DNA of 24,631 bases, taken from a virus. A program made the translations under genes and the position numbers. Numbering within the stretch: the first letter of the stretch is position 1; each line of letters starts with the position of its first letter. This document shows, in pieces, positions 2,506-22,528 of this stretch. Below the pieces are notes generated by a model. That model saw only the letters and a program-made list of their open reading frames with translations. It was not told the DNA's origin and searched no databases. The stretch covers positions 1-24,631 of the IMG/VR virus record IMGVR_UViG_3300025705_000020, one strand, 5' to 3'.

Positions 2506-2534
2506 ATTATATCACTTACCCTCTATAATGTCGA
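2506..2534 (-). promoter_or_regulatory. uvsX promoter, proximal copy
   Basis: Minus-strand TCGACA (2534-2529), 17-bp spacer, TATAAT (2511-2506). This is the duplicated copy, with one mismatch in the -35 box. Its -10 box ends 38 bases before the uvsX TTG. Confidence 0.75.
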
Positions 2535-2546
2535 GTAACTAATACC

Positions 2547-2575
2547 ATTATATCACTTACCCTCTAGAATGTCAA
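2547..2575 (-). promoter_or_regulatory. uvsX promoter, distal copy (perfect consensus)
   Basis: Minus-strand TTGACA (2575-2570), 17-bp spacer, TATAAT (2552-2547). The -35 box and spacer are also the last codons of the 80-aa gene. Confidence 0.85.
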
Positions 2576-11706: not shown

Positions 11707-12335
11707 CTATTTATCATCTCCAAGTCATTTTCAGCACGGTGAATAGTCTGTAATCGTAATATATCTGCTGCCACATCATGTCTACTATCATGAGCAACAA
11801 AGGCTTCTTTCCAATACACATCATCTAATACTGGGATGAAGGCATTCTTGATAGGAAAATTCAATTTAGCATCAATCCAAGTTCTTGTATCTCTTGTTTG
11901 CCACCACGGCAGATATTGCTGGGCGAGAAGACTTTGATCAACATCTCTCATAATCCTCTCTAATAGTAAAGGATCAAAGGAGTTACCCCTTGACCACCAG
12001 TGCTTGATGCTTCCAAACTCTCTTATATATGCTAACATTATAACAGAAAACTCGGTGTATGTCAAGTCGTTTTTGCTAGGTTTTAGATTATATTGTGCCT
12101 CTTTTGGAAGTCTTTCCCAGAACTTCAAATCTTCTTTTGAGAAGAGGTATCCATGAGAGATTTGATCCTTCACATCAAACTTAGATGTTCTCACAAGGTC
12201 TATTAGTTCTTGAAATGAATATGGAGTTGTTGTAAATCTTTCCCAATCAAACACCACATACGCTGCGTCGATGATAACACTCTTATGAGTACCATCACCA
12301 ACAGTTTCAAAGTCTATTATAAAGTCTTGCTTCAC
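11703..12335 (-). CDS. dexA: DexA-like 3'-5' exonuclease (GTG start)
   Basis: 210 residues (T4 DexA has 227). DnaQ-fold exonuclease: Exo I IIDFETVG (D8, E10), a central WWSRGNSFDPLLLERIMRD Exo II region, and C-terminal FVAHDSRHDVAADI with the HxxxxD Exo III motif. FIIDFET, WSRGNSFD, RDTRTWIDA and AFVAHDSRHD all match T4 DexA. Start is GTG at 12335 with GAGGAGG just upstream. A perfect sigma70 promoter is embedded in its coding sequence. T4 DexA is non-essential and may degrade host or damaged ends. Confidence 0.9.
   Translation of the reverse strand: MKQDFIIDFETVGDGTHKSVIIDAAYVVFDWERFTTTPYSFQELIDLVRTSKFDVKDQISHGYLFSKEDLKFWERLPKEAQYNLKPSKNDLTYTEFSVIMLAYIREFGSIKHWWSRGNSFDPLLLERIMRDVDQSLLAQQYLPWWQTRDTRTWIDAKLNFPIKNAFIPVLDDVYWKEAFVAHDSRHDVAADILRLQTIHRAENDLEMINR
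12037..12065 (-). promoter_or_regulatory. Perfect promoter inside dexA coding sequence
   Basis: Minus-strand TTGACA (12065-12060), 17-bp spacer, TATAAT (12042-12037). It is encoded by the codons for LTYTEFSVIM. It would supply the DUF5664 and glycosyltransferase genes, with a leader of about 325 bases. Confidence 0.65.
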
Positions 12336-12376: not shown

Positions 12377-13060
12377 TTATTTTATCGCAATCGCACCTAC
12401 GAATAAATGATGTTGCCAAAACGTTTGAACCGATTCGAACCCTGCTAGAGATAACATACCAACCAGTTCTGACCAAGTGTTTGGTTTGAGCATAGATCGC
12501 AAAGACTGCTCTTTATCCATAATGTCTTCAGTACCAAAAGACTTTCTCTTGAAGTCGTAGAACATAAAGGTTAGCATATCCTGAACTTTAGAACTACACG
12601 AATAAGTCTTCTCGGCGAACACAAAAGCACCACCGGCGTTTAGCCCCCGATAGATATTATTGAGTACATTCTGTCTGTCTTTTCGAGGCATAAACTGTAG
12701 CGTGAATATAGACGTGACCATGTTACAATTCTCAAACTCATAGTCACGAACATCTTTATGCTTTAGGTCAATTGATGGATACTCTATCATACGATTTTCC
12801 ATATCCTTTTTAAAACCAGAAGCATAATCAATACCTATGTAATTAGCATAGAAGGATACATCTTTATTCTGATCATACATCGCAGCAAGAGTCTTACCAG
12901 TAGAGCAACCAATGTCTACAATGTTAGTGTCGTCTTCTGCGAAGTATCTTGACATACTTACTATATCATCATGTAACATAGAGTACCCACGAATACTCGC
13001 ATCTATGTGGTTGTCAAACCCCTCATCTCTATGAGCAAATGTAAAGTCGTTCTCTTTCAT
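12377..13060 (-). CDS. cmoA: CmoA-like carboxy-S-adenosylmethionine synthase
   Basis: 227 residues, Rossmann methyltransferase fold. The similarity to E. coli CmoA (from memory) runs the full length: the N-terminal IDASIRGYSMLHDDIV matches the IQRSVPGYS region, VDIGCSTGK (48-56) is motif I, NCNMVTSIFTLQFM (111-124) matches the ASMVVLNFTLQF block, IYRGLNAGGAFVFAEK (136-151) and the C-terminal AGFESVQTFWQHHLFVGAIAIK complete it. CmoA uses SAM and prephenate to make carboxy-SAM. The E. coli Arg199 region is ambiguous: R188 (in LRSML) aligns only with a gap. ATG overlaps the stop of the C5-methyltransferase gene, and GAGGT is well placed. No CmoB is seen. A plain SAM methyltransferase is the main alternative. 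Confidence 0.85.
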   Translation of the reverse strand: MKENDFTFAHRDEGFDNHIDASIRGYSMLHDDIVSMSRYFAEDDTNIVDIGCSTGKTLAAMYDQNKDVSFYANYIGIDYASGFKKDMENRMIEYPSIDLKHKDVRDYEFENCNMVTSIFTLQFMPRKDRQNVLNNIYRGLNAGGAFVFAEKTYSCSSKVQDMLTFMFYDFKRKSFGTEDIMDKEQSLRSMLKPNTWSELVGMLSLAGFESVQTFWQHHLFVGAIAIK

Positions 13061-14280
13061 TTTATTACCTCGTTATACGGTTTCAATACTTTTTCATAAA
13101 TCGAATCAGCAATAGCAGCCATCATCTTTGGGGCTACCATTCTACCAATTCGTTCAGCCTTTTGGTCAAACTCACCAGTCAACTTATAATCTTCTGGTAA
13201 AGACATTATACGCTTCAATTCTTTAATTGTCAACTTACGATTTGATGCATAGTGGAATACACCTGAAAGACCCCGCTTCTGACCCTGCTGAGTGAGTGTA
13301 GGACATGGTTTAGAGGGCGATGGTCGTATCATATTGAAGCACGATCCCTTAGGGTTCCAGTCACGAAACTGTGGATCACTGGGTTTCATATGCTTGCTTG
13401 GTCGAAACGGTATCGGGTCAAGAAACTTCTTTTGAAAAGAACCTTCATAGAAGTCACGCAAATGTTGAACTTCTTCAGCATCATTCTCAATATTTTCAAT
13501 AGCCGCTTCAATACTAATATGTGATGTAGTTGGTTCGGGGAATATTCCATTGAGATTGAGAATATTCAAACCGATTGCTTCAGCTACATCATCACGCACA
13601 CATATAAAGATGGTACGCTCTCGCGTCTGAGCCACACCGTAATCCGCAGCACTCACTACTTTATATGTCACTTGATACCCTAGGGCTTCGAAAGAGTTTA
13701 CGAACTCATACAGCTTTGCTCTAGCCTCGCCAAATGTAATACCCTTTACATTTTCAGCTATAATAACTTTGGGTTGTATATCTTTTGCTACACGAATATA
13801 TTCTAAGAACAAGTCTTCAATACCAGTCTGAATCTTATTGTCAGAGTATTTCTTGATACCCTCTTTGACCTTCAACTCACCCTCTTGTATTATGTTGCCG
13901 TCATCATCAAATGAAGTCTTGCGTGTATCTTCTTGATAGCCAACCCAACCCTTCTCCCGCTTACCAGCAACGGAGAACGCTGAACATGGCGGTGAACCAT
14001 CAAGTATGTCTAGTTCACCTGACTTGATGTTAGCCATATCGAGGAAATCTTGACCAGAGTATTTTTTGATATCATCTACAAGAACAGGTGTGTCTGGATA
14101 GTTTTCTTTGTAAGAAGAAATAGCCTCTTCAACAAACTCGTTGATAAGAAGAATATTACCACCCGCCAATCTATAACCAGTGCTACTACCCCCACCACCA
14201 GCGAAACAACTAATGACTGAGAATAGTTTTTTGTCAGATGCTTTCTTCACATCTTCGTTATCATATGGTTCGTATTTCAT
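13057..14280 (-). CDS. DNA cytosine-C5 methyltransferase, predicted carboxymethyltransferase
   Basis: 407 residues with all key motifs. I: CFAGGGGSSTGYRLAG (25-40); IV: GSPPCSAFS with catalytic C99; VI: AENV (175-178); VIII: QTRER (218-222); late NRKLTIKELKRIMSLPEDY (347-365); X: RIGRMVAPKMMAAIADSI (377-394). The target-recognition region is about 250-345. A charged insert of roughly 35 residues lies between motifs IV and VI. Motif X normally reads G-N-x-V; here N is R380. In the M.MpeI variant N374K (recalled) that change allows carboxy-SAM use. Coupled to cmoA by ATGA. Own promoter at 14348-14376. The GAGGT before the ATG at 14280 fixes the start. Confidence 0.93.
   Translation of the reverse strand: MKYEPYDNEDVKKASDKKLFSVISCFAGGGGSSTGYRLAGGNILLINEFVEEAISSYKENYPDTPVLVDDIKKYSGQDFLDMANIKSGELDILDGSPPCSAFSVAGKREKGWVGYQEDTRKTSFDDDGNIIQEGELKVKEGIKKYSDNKIQTGIEDLFLEYIRVAKDIQPKVIIAENVKGITFGEARAKLYEFVNSFEALGYQVTYKVVSAADYGVAQTRERTIFICVRDDVAEAIGLNILNLNGIFPEPTTSHISIEAAIENIENDAEEVQHLRDFYEGSFQKKFLDPIPFRPSKHMKPSDPQFRDWNPKGSCFNMIRPSPSKPCPTLTQQGQKRGLSGVFHYASNRKLTIKELKRIMSLPEDYKLTGEFDQKAERIGRMVAPKMMAAIADSIYEKVLKPYNEVIK
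13205..13233 (-). promoter_or_regulatory. Perfect promoter inside C5-methyltransferase gene, for cmoA
   Basis: Minus-strand TTGACA (13233-13228), 17-bp spacer, TATAAT (13210-13205), 145 bases before the cmoA ATG. It is encoded by the conserved LTIKELKRIM codons of the methyltransferase. Confidence 0.65.
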
Positions 14281-14287
14281 CTATACC

Positions 14288-15094
14288 TCAAAACAATGTT
14301 GCGCCTACGTTTTGCCAATCTCTTACCAAATCTAATGTACGATCTCTATTATACACGTTTATCTCACGATTGTCAAGTAGTTTCTCAAAATATTCTGGTA
14401 TGCCAGCAATTAGTTGTAAGTTCTCATGCTTACGTCTTTTGATATTCTTGATCTCGTAGAAGGCTTCGTGTATGGGCGCCTTCTGATATGGCTTGTTAAA
14501 GAAGTCGTGATCGTGTAACATCATCCATGCGGCTACATCACTATTTAGGTATGGTGCGAGTATCTTCATTCCATACTCTTCTGCGAGATATTCTTGTTGT
14601 CTTATACCGGCAGGATTCTCTGCGCCAAAGTAATCATTTCTGAATTGATCGAATAGTTCTTTTGTGTGCTTGAAGTGAATGTTGGCACGTTTAGACACGC
14701 CATACCAACCATCGGCTGCTACACCAGAGAGCACTACTTTTTCTTTGATCTTAGGGTAGACATATAGAAATGGGAATGTACACTCTACTTGAGTTTTCTT
14801 CTTACAACGATACTTGTTTATAAGTGTAAAGAAGTCTTCTTCGATGTTATCAACTGGCACATCTACAGAAACGAAGTCCCAACCAAAATGTTCAGCGACA
14901 TCTTTAGCGCCTAGACTATCTGTTGTCTGCTTACCATTGACATACATACTATAGCCAGTAACCTTCTTACCTAGACGTTGTGCGGCTAGACCGCAAGTTA
15001 TGCTATCTGTGCCTGCTGATAATAATACCGCTACATGATCTTCATTCGTTTCTCTATCAACGTAGTCTACTATAATCTCATCGATGTTCTTCAT
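14288..15094 (-). CDS. PP-loop ATPase, asparagine-synthetase C-domain-like
   Basis: 268 residues. ATP pyrophosphatase fold: PP-loop LLSAGTDSI with S26-A-G-T-D30-S31, a VLSGVAADGWYG stretch (121-132) in place of the AsnB LSGEGADELFGG loop, and ILAPYLNSDVAAWMM (178-192) in place of the PFLD segment, then KAPIHEAF. The N-terminal glutaminase domain with Cys2 is absent, so it would use free ammonia or another amine. AsnB-type enzymes adenylate a carboxylate and form an amide. Next to a predicted DNA carboxymethylation pair, the substrate could be 5-carboxymethylcytosine; that is inference. It may instead be an amidotransferase acting on a sugar. Overlaps the nucleotidyltransferase gene end. Confidence 0.7.
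   Translation of the reverse strand: MKNIDEIIVDYVDRETNEDHVAVLLSAGTDSITCGLAAQRLGKKVTGYSMYVNGKQTTDSLGAKDVAEHFGWDFVSVDVPVDNIEEDFFTLINKYRCKKKTQVECTFPFLYVYPKIKEKVVLSGVAADGWYGVSKRANIHFKHTKELFDQFRNDYFGAENPAGIRQQEYLAEEYGMKILAPYLNSDVAAWMMLHDHDFFNKPYQKAPIHEAFYEIKNIKRRKHENLQLIAGIPEYFEKLLDNREINVYNRDRTLDLVRDWQNVGATLF
14348..14376 (-). promoter_or_regulatory. C5-methyltransferase promoter (perfect consensus)
   Basis: Minus-strand TTGACA (14376-14371), 17-bp spacer, TATAAT (14353-14348), 67 bases before the methyltransferase ATG and inside the 3' end of the PP-loop gene. Confidence 0.75.
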
Positions 15095-15503
15095 CGTATA
15101 TTCTGCCTCTCAATTCACTCGAAGAGAATCTATGCTCTCTCTGATTGAAGTATAATTCTATACCCATTGTATCACAAATATCACGTCCTGTAAAGAGGGA
15201 ATCTTTATACTCTTTACCTAGTATCCTTACATCAGGCGTGTAGAGTTGAAGTATATCTAAGAGTTCTTTTTCATACAGGTATGGCACCACTTCGTCAACA
15301 TACTTTATGGCTGAGAGTTGAACATATCTCTCAACCGTATTCTGGATTGGTGAGTTCTTCTCAGAACGATCTAACGATGGGTCTATGTGTAGCGCACAAA
15401 CAAGATAGTCACATTGCGACTTAGCATCTTTCAGCATCGCAATGTGACCAGCGTGTAGTAAATCGAAAGCAGAAGCAGTTATACCAACTCTCTTACTCCT
15501 CAT
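15078..15503 (-). CDS. Cytidylyltransferase-like nucleotidyltransferase
   Basis: 141 residues. N-terminal VGITASAFDLLHAGHIAML carries the HxGH motif (H17, H20) of the TagD/RfaE-type cytidylyltransferases, and the second motif FSSSELR (126-132) corresponds to the ISTS-x-LR signature. These enzymes make CDP- or ADP-activated small phosphates such as glycerol or sugar phosphates. Substrate unknown. The frame is open for 29 more codons upstream, but that stretch is the other frame of the 56-aa gene, so ATG 15503 is chosen; no good ribosome site is present and the start overlaps the preceding gene by 11 bases, which suggests coupling. Confidence 0.8.
   Translation of the reverse strand: MRSKRVGITASAFDLLHAGHIAMLKDAKSQCDYLVCALHIDPSLDRSEKNSPIQNTVERYVQLSAIKYVDEVVPYLYEKELLDILQLYTPDVRILGKEYKDSLFTGRDICDTMGIELYFNQREHRFSSSELRGRIYDEEHR
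15166..15194 (-). promoter_or_regulatory. Weaker promoter before PP-loop gene
   Basis: Minus-strand TTTACA (15194-15189), 17-bp spacer, TACAAT (15171-15166); one mismatch in each box. It lies inside the nucleotidyltransferase gene, 71 bases before the PP-loop gene start. Confidence 0.5.
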
Positions 15504-15663
15504 ATGTTGGCACGCAAATAGTTGACTCACCCTCAGTGAACTCTTCTTCAAGAACCCACTGTGCGTGTATACAAGTCTCGAAGTGATCAAATGTATCGTA
15601 ACGAGTTACCTTAGGTTCTTCCATTCCAATCACAGTGCTAATAACAAATAAAGTCCAAGTCAT
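15493..15663 (-). CDS. 56-aa protein with hydrophobic N-terminus
   Basis: 56 codons. A short hydrophobic start (MTWTLFVISTVIGM) is followed by a polar part with FETCIHAQWVLEEEF and a second cysteine at position 50 (STICVP). The two cysteines (C31, C50) could pair if the protein were exported, but the hydrophobic stretch is short. Similar small proteins occur in T4-like marine phages; no function is known to me. AGGA precedes the ATG at 15663 by six bases, and the stop overlaps the nucleotidyltransferase start. Confidence 0.65.
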   Translation of the reverse strand: MTWTLFVISTVIGMEEPKVTRYDTFDHFETCIHAQWVLEEEFTEGESTICVPTYEE

Positions 15664-17754: not shown

Positions 17755-18822
17755 TCATAAAGACAATGCTTCGTGATAAAGTTCTTCAAGACAAACTTCA
17801 ACTCTCTTCTTATCAGTCTTGATATCTAGTGAAGATATATATTGCTTGAGTATTGTCATAGTGTCTTGGGCTTCGTCAAGAAGTTCATCCTCATCAATAG
17901 CGTCTAGATTATGATGGTCTTCAACTACCTTGATATCAGCCGCTTCAGAGGCTTGTAGTCTATCAAGAAACAAGTCAAAGATATAAGGATTATCTTTTGT
18001 TTTCACAATAACTTTTATAAACGTATCTGCGAGTAATGATGTGTCGAGGTTCGAGATATCTTCGATAGTCATATCAGTATCATCATAAACAATCTTATTG
18101 AATATGCTGATAGGATTCTGAATAAACTCCATCTCACGGGTCTCTGTATCAAACACGCTAAACCCACGCTTCTGACCAGCATCCGACCATGTGAGTTCAT
18201 ACTGTGCGCCAATATAGGTTATGTTACCTAAAGATGATGGGTGATGAAAGTGTCCAGAGTAAACTGAATCAAACTTAGAGAATGTCTTTGCGTTCATACC
18301 GTGATCGCATAACTGACCCTTTATCATCTCATAACCAGTGACCTCTAGATGACCCATGAGTATCTGTGCGTCAGTTTCAGCTATAGCTTTCAACGATGCT
18401 TCTTGATTCTCAGCACATATCCAAGGGGCTAACATAATCTTACAGTCATCTACAACTACCTCAACTGGCTTATCCCAGTATGTGTGTAAATTCTTATAGT
18501 TATGATTGCCATAGAGTTGGTTGAGACTATTGACCTCATTCGTGTTCTTGAAATATACATCGTGATTACCAGCAATAATATGAACCTCAATATTATTCTC
18601 AGAACATATTTTCATAAAGTGATCATCAAGGCTTTTGGCTGTAACGAAGTTGATATACTTACGTCTGTCAGTAAGATCGCCTAGATGAAATATAGTCTTG
18701 ATATTATTCTCTAGTAGATATGGAAAGAATGTATCTTTGTAAAACTTGATAATATGCTTATGTATTGCTACGTTATCATTCCTTGCGCCCCAGTGTGAGT
18801 CGTTCAGTATTGCTACTCTCAT
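17755..18822 (-). CDS. 47: Recombination nuclease subunit, gp47 (Mre11/SbcD-like)
   Basis: Metal-dependent phosphoesterase that cuts DNA ends with gp46. 355 residues (T4 has 339). Phosphoesterase motifs in order: I LNDSHWG (D8, H10), II HLGDLTD, III AGNHDVYF, IV MGHLEVTG and V SGHFHHP. The C-terminal part, which should bind gp46, is acidic. ATG overlaps the gp55 stop (ATGA), so late sigma factor and nuclease are coupled. Confidence 0.96.
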   Translation of the reverse strand: MRVAILNDSHWGARNDNVAIHKHIIKFYKDTFFPYLLENNIKTIFHLGDLTDRRKYINFVTAKSLDDHFMKICSENNIEVHIIAGNHDVYFKNTNEVNSLNQLYGNHNYKNLHTYWDKPVEVVVDDCKIMLAPWICAENQEASLKAIAETDAQILMGHLEVTGYEMIKGQLCDHGMNAKTFSKFDSVYSGHFHHPSSLGNITYIGAQYELTWSDAGQKRGFSVFDTETREMEFIQNPISIFNKIVYDDTDMTIEDISNLDTSLLADTFIKVIVKTKDNPYIFDLFLDRLQASEAADIKVVEDHHNLDAIDEDELLDEAQDTMTILKQYISSLDIKTDKKRVEVCLEELYHEALSL

Positions 18823-19391
18823 TCTTCTTTATCATCCTCATAAAAGTTCTCTAGGCCCTTCTTCTTCTGTCGGACCAAGGTAGCTTCTTTCTTGTCAGCC
18901 ATAGATTTCTCATAGTTGCTTACAAAGTTATTCATATAGTCATTGTTGAGGTCTATATAGTCAGGACTAGACGTATCGCTACCGTCTGAGGTGACTGTAG
19001 TGCCTTGAACGACAGAGTTCTCAATGACCTTGTGTCGTATATACATCTGCCTCTTTTCTTTTTGAATACGACGAATAAAGGCAAAGTAAATGACCTGAGT
19101 GAAATAAGCAAATGGGTTCTTCGATTTCTCAGGATCAAAGTTGTTGATACAAAGGACAGCGTTCTCTAAACCATCACTGACCATATCATCTCTATAAGAG
19201 TAGTTGATAAAGTTAGGCTTATAAGATAAACGATTCGCTATCTGATATAAACACTCACCCAGATAGTTCGGTATTCGAGGCTGCTCCTCACCAGATTCTT
19301 CTGCGTCTTTGACTTCAATTTTATACTTGATCATGGCTTCTAGAAACTCAGCATTGTTTACATAGTTCTTAGCCTTTTTCTTTTTCGTCAT
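18819..19391 (-). CDS. 55: Late transcription sigma factor gp55
   Basis: Directs host RNA polymerase to the TATAAATA late promoters, four of which occur in this window. 190 residues (T4 has 185). The conserved core is FDPEKSKNPFAYFTQVIYFAFIRRIQKEKR, equivalent to sigma region 2; upstream YRDDMVSDGLENAVLCINNF fits the same domain. The lysine-rich N-terminus and acidic C-terminus, where T4 gp55 binds the clamp gp45, are present, but a clear clamp motif is not obvious. GGGAG precedes the ATG and a perfect promoter lies upstream. Confidence 0.93.
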   Translation of the reverse strand: MTKKKKAKNYVNNAEFLEAMIKYKIEVKDAEESGEEQPRIPNYLGECLYQIANRLSYKPNFINYSYRDDMVSDGLENAVLCINNFDPEKSKNPFAYFTQVIYFAFIRRIQKEKRQMYIRHKVIENSVVQGTTVTSDGSDTSSPDYIDLNNDYMNNFVSNYEKSMADKKEATLVRQKKKGLENFYEDDKEE

Positions 19392-19414: not shown

Positions 19415-19443
19415 ATTATAGCATAATACTCTTACAGTGTCAA
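19415..19443 (-). promoter_or_regulatory. gp55 promoter (perfect consensus)
   Basis: Minus-strand TTGACA (19443-19438), 17-bp spacer, TATAAT (19420-19415), 23 bases before the gp55 ATG. Confidence 0.85.
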
Positions 19444-19477
19444 GTAAATAAATTTTCAACAATATGCGTTTTAGGGG

Positions 19478-19506
19478 TTGACAGGTGTATCATATTGGTG
19501 TATAAT
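19478..19506 (+). promoter_or_regulatory. Perfect promoter on the plus strand, opposite to all neighbours
   Basis: Plus-strand TTGACA (19478-19483), 17-bp spacer, TATAAT (19501-19506). It stands back-to-back with the gp55 promoter (34 bases between the two -35 boxes) and would transcribe rightwards, antisense to the 49-aa gene, the 116-aa gene and uvsW. No convincing plus-strand ORF follows. Confidence 0.75.
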
Positions 19507-19530
19507 AGTATTAAGACTTTAGAATAATAT

Positions 19531-19556
19531 ATTAGATTCTATTAGATTCGATTAGA
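19531..19556. repeat. Three 10-bp-period ATTAGATTC repeats
   Basis: ATTAGATTC at 19531 and 19541 and a degenerate copy (ATTAGAATG) at 19551, one helical turn apart. They lie about 25 bases downstream of the plus-strand -10 box and end at the stop of the 49-aa gene. Confidence 0.65.
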
Positions 19557-19701
19557 ATGCAACTATCTTCATTCGTTGTAATATCTTCTTACATTCAACT
19601 AAGTCAGTTATCTCTGGAACAATAGAATCAACAAGATAACAGAACTCTACAATACGATCATACACTTCTTGATCAATAACTTCAGTTACTTCAGACTTCA
19701 T
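19552..19701 (-). CDS. 49-aa acidic protein
   Basis: 49 codons, helical and acidic (MKSEVTEVIDQEVYDRIVEF at the N-terminus), two cysteines, no known family. AGGAG stands seven bases before the ATG at 19701, overlapping the stop region of the upstream 116-aa gene. It is the last gene before the divergent promoter region, and its stop lies within the 10-bp repeats. Function unknown. Confidence 0.65.
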   Translation of the reverse strand: MKSEVTEVIDQEVYDRIVEFCYLVDSIVPEITDLVECKKILQRMKIVAF

Positions 19702-19710
19702 AATATACTC

Positions 19711-20061
19711 CTAGTGTTTAGTAGAATCTCTTGACTCTAACATAGCATCAAATAGTTCCATGAGTGTGTCATCACTCTCTTGCTCCTCTACAATCTTATC
19801 ATAGAAGTTATTGTATATCTGATGTGATGACTCGTTACCCTTACCCATAAACACTATCATACTAGTATTTAGATTGATAGTAGATGACTCAGAGTAGGGA
19901 TTCAATAGCTTAGTATAAAGTCCCTCATCTCTATCATAGTGAGTTACAAGAGGTGCTATAAGTTTTACTATATTCTTATTCTCACTCTTATTGTCCATAT
20001 CTATGTAGGCTAAGATATCGTCACCACTAAGTATCTTTATATGAAATAGTTCAAGTTTCAA
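19711..20061 (-). CDS. 116-aa protein, possible Sm-like fold (TTG start)
   Basis: 116 residues of unknown function. The first part (LFHIKILSGDDILAYID, then NIVKLIAPLVTHY and STINLNTSMIVFMG) alternates like the short beta-strands of an Sm/LSm-like barrel; this is a weak structural guess. The C-terminal 35 residues are acidic and helical. Start is TTG at 20061 with AGGGA seven bases upstream, overlapping the uvsW stop. It is placed between uvsW and gp55, where marine T4-like phages carry small unknown genes. Confidence 0.75.
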   Translation of the reverse strand: MKLELFHIKILSGDDILAYIDMDNKSENKNIVKLIAPLVTHYDRDEGLYTKLLNPYSESSTINLNTSMIVFMGKGNESSHQIYNNFYDKIVEEQESDDTLMELFDAMLESRDSTKH

Positions 20062-20065
20062 GATA

Positions 20066-21523
20066 TTATCCCTTTAGATCAATATTGTATATTTTATAGT
20101 CAAAGGACTCGCTACTGTATATATTTATGCGTTCTAGAAAATGCTTTACAGCAAAGTTCTTCTTATTCTTCCACTGTAAGTCATCAACGATATCATACAG
20201 AGTTGCTTCAGTATTGTCAATACCTTTTCTCAAGACACGACCTATTGACTGTAGATTTCTTATCTTTGACTTAGAGGGAGACGCAAAAATAATATTATCA
20301 AGGTTGACCACATTAACCCCAGTAGAGTAAACGCCATAACTAGCAAGAATAATATTGTTATCGGTAGATTCAGCAATATGACGCACACGCTCACGATCAT
20401 CTGCAGAAACGCCCCCATGTATGAAGTGGACTTGCTTGTTATCTGTTTTAAGCATTGGGTACAAGAGTTTTCCATGCTTTTCAACAAACTGAAATAAGAC
20501 GAGCGTGTTACCTTCAAGAGACCACGCAAGATTGCGAATGAACTTATTGCGGGCAGTATGAGTAACGATAGAGTCGATTTCTTCTTGGTATGTTCTATTC
20601 GCATTTTCTTTACGTCTACCTTCACCATAACCCAAAACAAGACACTTGATACTGAAAGCTGCAAGAGTAGCGTCCTCAATGAGTTTTCTAGTTTGTGTAA
20701 CCTCAAAGACAGGTCCGAACAAACCTTCGAGAACAAGTTTGTGAGTTTGTGTCCCATCTAATGTTCCCGTAAATCCGTATCTATATTTGACATTTGACAT
20801 TTTCTCCATTATGCTTGTAAGAGACTTTGCTTTGAATAAGTGACACTCATCACCTATCACAACATCAAACTTATCAAAGAAGTCTTTCTTCTGTTTATAT
20901 ATGCTCTGCCACGTGGATATAGTATAGTCCGCTAATATATTCTTATCAACACCACCCATGATACCATGAATATCAAGTTTGTCACCGTTATTGTAATCAG
21001 TGAAGTCAGAACTCATTTGAGTAACTAAACTTGTTGTTGGAACAATAATGAGAACCTTTCTGTTATGTATCTGACTATGATAGCGAGAGAGTAAATATAT
21101 GATGAACGATTTACCAGACGCTGTTGGTGATAGCAACAACGCTCTATTATGTCGTAGTGCGTGAACAACAGCACTGTTCTGATAATCACGGGTATCATAT
21201 CTTGCGTTGAACTCTGTCGCAAGTTGTGAGCCAGCATCTTCGTCCACTGTCTGAATATCATACACATCACTATCTAACTGAAAGTTATAGCCACGGGACT
21301 CACAGAAAGACTTGACATAACCAGTAAGACCGTAGTATATACTACCCGTCATAGCATTGAGCAAACGCACCTTACCATCCCAGACCTTGTTCCGAACCGC
21401 TGGCATGAACTTAGCGCCCGGGACTTCGAATGTAAAGTGTTCAGACAATTCCATTTTAGTAGAAGGATCTGCTTGAACTCTAATGTAGACCTCATTGACC
21501 CTACTCACCTTCACATTTTCCAT
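20066..21523 (-). CDS. uvsW: UvsW recombination helicase
   Basis: Superfamily 2 helicase that unwinds branched DNA and R-loops and, in T4, ends origin-dependent replication. 485 residues from ATG 21523 (T4 has 503). An N-terminal substrate-binding domain (about 1-95) with VWDGKVRLL is followed by Walker A SPTASGKS (132-139), the DECH box (225-228), motif III region YGFTGTLDG, and the C-terminal RecA lobe with ASYGVYSTGVNV and QSIGRVLRKG (motif VI). Its ATG overlaps the uvsY stop as TGATG; an in-frame TTG nine codons upstream is less likely. Confidence 0.96.
   Translation of the reverse strand: MENVKVSRVNEVYIRVQADPSTKMELSEHFTFEVPGAKFMPAVRNKVWDGKVRLLNAMTGSIYYGLTGYVKSFCESRGYNFQLDSDVYDIQTVDEDAGSQLATEFNARYDTRDYQNSAVVHALRHNRALLLSPTASGKSFIIYLLSRYHSQIHNRKVLIIVPTTSLVTQMSSDFTDYNNGDKLDIHGIMGGVDKNILADYTISTWQSIYKQKKDFFDKFDVVIGDECHLFKAKSLTSIMEKMSNVKYRYGFTGTLDGTQTHKLVLEGLFGPVFEVTQTRKLIEDATLAAFSIKCLVLGYGEGRRKENANRTYQEEIDSIVTHTARNKFIRNLAWSLEGNTLVLFQFVEKHGKLLYPMLKTDNKQVHFIHGGVSADDRERVRHIAESTDNNIILASYGVYSTGVNVVNLDNIIFASPSKSKIRNLQSIGRVLRKGIDNTEATLYDIVDDLQWKNKKNFAVKHFLERINIYSSESFDYKIYNIDLKG
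20192..20220 (-). promoter_or_regulatory. Promoter inside 3' end of uvsW
   Basis: Minus-strand TTGACA (20220-20215), 17-bp spacer, TATGAT (20197-20192), 131 bases before the TTG start of the 116-aa gene. Confidence 0.5.
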
Positions 21524-21957
21524 CAGGCCCCCGTCCGAAACTTTTCCCAATCCACAATGGACTTGATCTGAAATCCTCTATTGTGTATCATTTTTATTAT
21601 ATTCTCAAGATAATCTACCTTAGATTCAAGTAGACCTATCTTGAGGCTTATAGTTATAATCTCATCGTCTGCGTCTAGATATGTAGGTATGTCTTGTCGA
21701 AGTATCTTCAGAGGTTGAGGCTTCCAGCCATACTCCCTCAACTCTTCAATATCAAGTTCACCCTTATAATACTGTTCTTTCGTGAGTTTGAGTTTCTTAT
21801 AGTCTGTTCTCATCTTCTTGAGTTTCAAACCCTCTTGAACATATATCATATAATACTTGTTGTGGAGTTTTGGTATGTTAGCTGATTCTTTTGATATGTT
21901 GATCGTATCAAGTTCACCGTCTGTCTTCCACATCTCATAAATCTCTTCAATATTCAT
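21523..21957 (-). CDS. uvsY: UvsY recombination mediator
   Basis: Loads UvsX onto gp32-coated ssDNA. 144 residues (T4 has 137). The C-terminal IHNRGFQIKSIVDWEKFRTG aligns with the T4 UvsY end, and the middle (YYKGELDIEEL, ILRQDIPTYLDADDEII, LESKVDYLENII) follows the same order and spacing. Mostly helical, charged. GGAGAC precedes the ATG at 21957. It is coupled to uvsW, its pathway partner. Confidence 0.93.
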   Translation of the reverse strand: MNIEEIYEMWKTDGELDTINISKESANIPKLHNKYYMIYVQEGLKLKKMRTDYKKLKLTKEQYYKGELDIEELREYGWKPQPLKILRQDIPTYLDADDEIITISLKIGLLESKVDYLENIIKMIHNRGFQIKSIVDWEKFRTGA

Positions 21958-22488: not shown

Positions 22489-22496
22489 TATTTATA
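22489..22496 (-). promoter_or_regulatory. T4-type late promoter for the tail protein
   Basis: Minus-strand TATAAATA at 22496-22489, between the gp23 terminator and the tail gene, 21 bases before its ATG. Confidence 0.85.
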
Positions 22497-22498
22497 AG

Positions 22499-22528
22499 AC
22501 AAAAATAAAGGGGCGCCGAAGCGCCCCT
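22499..22528 (-). terminator. Intrinsic terminator after gp23
   Basis: Seven G/C pairs (GGGGCGC/GCGCCCC, plus an A-T) close a TTCG tetraloop on the minus strand, followed by TTTATTTTTG. This is a textbook terminator, 25 bases after the gp23 stop codon. Confidence 0.95.

Follow-up and report, generated by a model that had tools for sequence, protein, structure and literature searches.

A conserved early-type promoter facing the 3' end of GC139 in phages of the T4 superfamily, and its possible antisense role towards uvsW

CfrI, an experimentally shown antisense RNA of the T4-like cyanophage S-PM2, is linked to neighbouring genes and, as summarised in the article that cites its description, is transcribed opposite to psbA and a gene for a homing endonuclease (Millard et al. 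2010, cited in PMC2984593). The T4 replication origins oriF, oriG and oriE are driven by promoters, which lie near uvsY or, for oriE, belong to the early type, and they have an AT-rich downstream element; UvsW, a late gene product of T4, acts on these origins by unwinding their R-loops (PMC3016281). The promoters of oriF and oriG are MotA middle promoters, and cyanomyoviruses and pelagimyophages have no motA (PMC2984593, PMC7029224). Early promoters of the sigma-70 type in T4-like cyanophages carry consensus -35 and -10 elements. Promoters of the phage N4 vRNAP form a short stem-loop with a small loop and are read by the virion polymerase.

The promoter described here lies in a stretch of a T4-superfamily genome, a virus record analysed over its whole length of 24.6 kb (the window), and points rightwards into the 3' end of a leftward uvsY-uvsW-GC139 operon (Table 1). 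Like CfrI, it would give an antisense transcript linked to neighbouring genes in a T4-like phage; unlike CfrI as that article presents it, the promoter is predicted only, concerns GC139 and uvsW, and belongs to phages whose hosts reach far beyond cyanobacteria. It resembles the T4 origins in its place near uvsY and perhaps in the AT-rich sequence downstream, but it is of the early type, unlike oriF and oriG, and has an inverted repeat (dyad) over its start site, which is not described for the T4 origins. The consensus elements and the early type are shared with the cyanophage early promoters, which differ from it in that this promoter points antisense at a 3' end and has a dyad conserved by pairing. 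In having a short stem-loop with a small loop it recalls the N4 promoters, whereas here canonical -35 and -10 elements are present and the dyad sits on the start site.

Table 1. Predicted features around the antisense promoter (positions in the window)
Feature	Position	Strand	Remarks
gp55, late sigma factor	18819..19391	-	phrog_234, E 3e-60
gp55 promoter	19415..19443	-	exact 12/12; back-to-back with antisense promoter
Antisense promoter	19478..19506	+	exact; TTGACA 19478-19483, 17-nt spacer, TATAAT 19501-19506
Window dyad, degenerate form	19507..19518	+	AGTATTAAGACT; outer 3 bp AGT/ACT only
49-aa ORF	19552..19701	-	ribosome-site-like AGGAG; no family; inserted between promoter and GC139
116-aa gene, GC139 family	19711..20061	-	weak PHROG matches phrog_527, phrog_471; synteny and HMM
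uvsW helicase	20066..21550	-	Pfam UvsW_N, ResIII, Helicase_C
uvsY	21523..21957	-	phrog_231
Late-promoter motif TATAAATA	22489..22496	-	exact; upstream of tail tube gene

The GC139 family (T4-LIKE GC 139) carries the annotation "methylamine utilization" in cyanophages, and the 116-aa gene is a weak member of it. The tail tube gene was identified by phrog_45, and the TATAAATA motif upstream of it is the strongest candidate for a sense promoter of the tail tube-uvsY-uvsW-116-aa genes in the window. A strong terminator-like hairpin (8 bp, 7 GC) lies at 22509-22528 (-) between the major capsid and tail tube genes and is followed by this motif. The major capsid protein is closest to those of Stenotrophomonas phage DLP6 and Sinorhizobium phage phiM12, with 66-68% identity. 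Elsewhere in the window, among replication and recombination genes, a cluster at 12377-15590 (-) has Pfam matches to a SAM methyltransferase, a C5 cytosine DNA methylase, an asparagine-synthase-like protein and a cytidylyltransferase, and is a possible DNA or surface modification cassette.

The first-pass annotation had reported an exact rightward TTGACA-N17-TATAAT placed back-to-back with the gp55 promoter, with a start near 19513, and each of these points was confirmed. The match is the only one of the eight exact N17 matches in the window that lies on the plus strand, the other seven being on the minus strand; the -35 elements of the two promoters are 34 bp apart, and the predicted start site is about 19513. 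The spacer of 17 nt falls within the 16-18 nt between TTGACA and TATAAT of a sigma-70-type early promoter, and this architecture is kept in relatives. Matches with at most two mismatches are also abundant, with 22 in the window against 4.9 (sd 2.2) expected from shuffles. The motif alone is no proof, since three of the minus-strand 12/12 matches (12037-12065, 13205-13233 and 14348-14376) sit within ORFs and are probably coding coincidences; relatives have the first of them at the corresponding position, which probably reflects a conserved protein motif. Tandem near-identical promoters, TTGACATTCTAGAGGGTAAGTGATATAAT and TCGACATTATAGAGGGTAAGTGATATAAT, which lie 41 nt apart at 2506-2575 (-) directly upstream of a recA/UvsX-like gene, are a recent promoter duplication.

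The proof comes from conservation in relatives, which the first-pass annotation had proposed as a check. Among 225 loci with gp55 relatives, taken from IMG/VR and from isolates, a divergent promoter with at least 10 of the 12 consensus positions stands beside gp55 in 202; on the same strand, control intervals at distances of 400-570 and 600-770 nt have a match of at least 11/12 in just 2 and 1 loci, respectively (about 1% or less). GC139 adjoins the gp55 region in 224 of these loci, and in 221 of them a promoter of at least 10/12 lies on the opposite strand facing the 3' end of GC139, the arrangement expected of a cis-antisense locus. Both hexamers are conserved almost universally and the spacers have diverged. 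The promoter also occurs in far-diverged phages, at 12/12 in phiM12 and phiN3 of Sinorhizobium and 11/12 in DLP6 of Stenotrophomonas. One of the three GC139 loci without a clear copy is that of Melnitz (L069, 2875-3053), in which TTGACA and TATATT stand at short spacing and form no consensus. These comparisons support a real promoter under selection. A chance or relic sequence without function could appeal to the frequency of bare consensus matches in an AT-rich window, but the 221 loci and a position tied to GC139 contradict it and leave it next to no probability.

The conserved partner of the promoter is the 3' end of the 116-aa gene family and not gp55, to which the first-pass annotation had coupled it. 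About 20 loci have one or more genes inserted between gp55 and GC139, and in these the promoter is missing beside gp55 and is found, at 11-12/12, just outside the 3' end of GC139. Since it stays by GC139 despite the inserted genes, the promoter is part of the GC139 end of the uvsY-uvsW-GC139 operon, and gp55 cannot explain its conservation. The distance from the -10 element to the GC139 stop codon is usually 23-51 nt (median 31.5); that of the window, about 200 nt, is exceptional because the 49-aa gene sits in between. The promoter of the window thus faces first the 49-aa and then the 116-aa gene, and a long transcript would overlap uvsW, so that the antisense orientation towards all three genes, as originally described, is borne out by position and direction.

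The region behind the promoter has no conserved coding capacity. The earlier statement that no plus-strand ORF with a ribosome site follows holds for the window, where no plus-strand ORF of at least 40 aa starts between the promoter and 20127, and for most relatives, where no conserved frame with a ribosome-site-like start was found; it does not hold for phiM12 and phiN3, in which a small plus-strand frame follows the promoter and to which the term non-coding therefore does not apply. In phiM12 this is an annotated 50-aa ORF, which has a purine-rich site and immediately follows the promoter. Together with the sense copies of the promoter, which drive small early genes elsewhere, the phiM12 ORF could indicate an ancestral promoter for a plus-strand gene that is short or evolves fast, retained in Sinorhizobium phages, with antisense RNA as a by-product in the other phages. 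This is quite improbable: over 184 distinct loci, the median length of the longest plus-strand ORF that has a ribosome-site-like start within 150 nt is 0, and a promoter without a gene to serve is not expected to stay perfect over such divergence. A conserved coding product was rejected, since relatives share no plus-strand ORF.

No credible Rfam family was found for the downstream region, relatives have no conserved terminator behind the promoter, and synonymous constraint in the overlapped GC139 codons is slight (ratio 1.18), restricted to the last five codons and close to the scatter elsewhere. A structured trans-acting small RNA does not agree with these three observations, nor a small RNA bounded by an intrinsic terminator with the second, and the lack of a conserved ORF and terminator together with the weak constraint suits a cis-acting RNA. 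As no conserved protein follows, the promoter probably makes a regulatory or replication-priming RNA.

In most relatives, the -10 element is directly followed by a short inverted repeat whose centre is the expected start site, as in Mosig (AACGG-TGT-CCGTT), phiN3 (CAGGA-ATG-TCCTG), DLP6 (TCAGG-TGTCG-CCTGA) and a 195-kb relative, G001 (GCCAT-T-ATGGC). The window holds a degenerate form, for which single-strand folding gave no stable hairpin. Dyad scores are far above those of shuffles and above those at other positions. With one sequence for each distinct 5-nt arm (63 arms), stems score 4.11 on average, whereas permuted halves average 3.06 (sd 0.13) and reach at most 3.43 in 200 permutations, and a cruder version of the test agrees. 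The arms differ widely in sequence between phages and retain their complementarity. The same applies within one genome, since the four copies of G001 have different arms, each self-complementary, which favours pairing over a fixed protein site and rules out a dimeric-repressor operator on the start site. Wobble pairs leaned towards the plus strand in a first tally (112 G-T vs 7 A-C), a lean that is suggestive at most because permuted halves give a G-T excess too (28 G-T to 11 A-C, vs 22 to 4 observed). Because the 5' arm is situated upstream of the expected start, the RNA would not carry the complete hairpin, and the arms would have to pair in DNA, for example in the non-template strand of an open complex or of an R-loop.

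Each genome has one to four copies of the promoter with its dyad. In G001, which has four, two copies away from GC139 also face the 3' ends of genes, at 33 and 20 nt from the stop codon, and the former recurs in two relatives (G002, G004). A second antisense promoter with dyad, of the GGCTATATAGCC type, is conserved at L282 1793 (-), L275 1349 (-) and G001:C1:129359 (+), and in window-clade relatives it faces the 3' end of a large, tail-fibre-like gene. A second copy in S-PM2 and Syn1 follows the gp5/baseplate lysozyme genes and is sense to small early genes; it lies at L244 2737-2800 (S-PM2 162737) and L246 16507 (Syn1), with A-tracts preceding it and the T4-LIKE GC 49 family downstream. An exact scan of IMG/VR with the cyanophage form gave at least 80 loci; among the matches listed, 68 are antisense to GC139 and 12 lie elsewhere, several of the latter being sense promoters of small genes. 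The remaining 12/12 matches found in relatives lie mostly within ORFs, have no dyad and were rejected as copies of this element. The occurrence at several sites, both antisense and sense, indicates a promoter class of which one copy is fixed behind GC139, and the dyad is not specific to antisense promoters, as it also accompanies sense ones. A wider reading, in which the T4 superfamily has a promoter class with a non-template-strand hairpin across the start site, kept by pairing, and in which the uvsW copy is an R-loop origin or a hairpin-controlled antisense switch, is rather doubtful.

The main rival to the antisense switch preferred below, and a serious one though of similarly low probability, is that the promoter is a replication origin, where the R-loop of its transcript would prime leading-strand synthesis as at oriF and oriG or oriE of T4, and where the dyad would fold out in the displaced non-template strand and stabilise the R-loop. 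The predicted non-coding transcript from a perfect promoter and a dyad conserved by pairing and not by sequence agree with this, as do the several copies per genome. Those near uvsY/uvsW, and those after gp5/baseplate lysozyme genes in S-PM2 and Syn1, recall in position oriF (uvsY) and oriE, which lies near gene 5 in T4. On the non-template strand, the first 20 transcribed nucleotides are rich in G (G 0.29, C 0.13) and are followed at +20 to +60 by the most AT-rich stretch (0.71), as T4 origins combine a promoter with an AT-rich element (PMC3016281), but this stretch is slightly richer at most than its surroundings, in a region AT-rich throughout. GC skew does not turn at the element in S-PM2, Syn1 and Mosig and does so only loosely in G001, and some copies are ordinary sense promoters, both of which weaken the origin role, and the plus-strand wobble preference is weak against permuted halves.

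The position 20-50 nt behind stop codons, facing the operon, and the lack of an intrinsic terminator within 1 kb on the minus strand of sampled loci could also suit a roadblock or insulator, in which tightly bound polymerase or convergent transcription would replace a terminator and stop read-through of the operon into gp55 and its neighbours; the start-site dyad could then slow promoter escape. However, gp55 has its own promoter and read-through would do no harm, sense copies of the element exist, and we know of no conserved escape-blocking sequence, so that this role is improbable.

We tentatively prefer, at somewhat less than even probability, an early antisense switch, of which transcription, antisense effect and timing are inferred. 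The conserved promoter just behind uvsY-uvsW-GC139, which faces inward and is of the kind read by the host housekeeping sigma factor, would give early in infection a non-coding, cis-antisense transcript over GC139 and uvsW. Through convergent transcription and RNA pairing, these promoter-distal genes would be held down, and the promoter-proximal uvsY would be expressed. The arrival of gp55 in place of the host sigma factor would silence the antisense promoter and lift the block, and UvsW would then be expressed late, as in T4, where it closes down the R-loop origins; the start-site dyad might, more speculatively, tune opening or escape in this promoter class. In the window clade, a sense promoter of at least 10/12 precedes uvsY in 22 of 23 loci and uvsW in none of the 26 loci searched, so two promoters converge on uvsW-GC139. 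Several observations stand against the antisense switch: the uvsY promoter is weak in the window itself (9/12), the 49-aa gene lies between promoter and GC139, sense copies with the dyad exist, and phiM12 and phiN3 have their small plus-strand ORF. The uvsY promoter of isolated cyanophages is also weaker than that of the window clade.

The antisense RNA first proposed for this locus is thus reasonable on sequence grounds, with a conserved unit and a partner gene that differ from the proposal. Its conservation makes the promoter more interesting than a single divergent promoter, as it ranges from cyanobacterial to rhizobial phages and occurs in nearly all relatives. The phages of the T4 type that infect cyanobacteria, SAR11, rhizobia and others belong to the most thoroughly studied viruses, and the promoter is not mentioned in the literature examined on cyanophage and pelagiphage transcription. 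A dyad that is conserved by pairing and free in sequence is unusual for a canonical sigma-70 promoter. If the promoter is an origin, it would supply the cis element so far missing for these phages; if it controls the timing of UvsW, the gp55 switch would be connected with the point at which origin replication ceases in phages without MotA.
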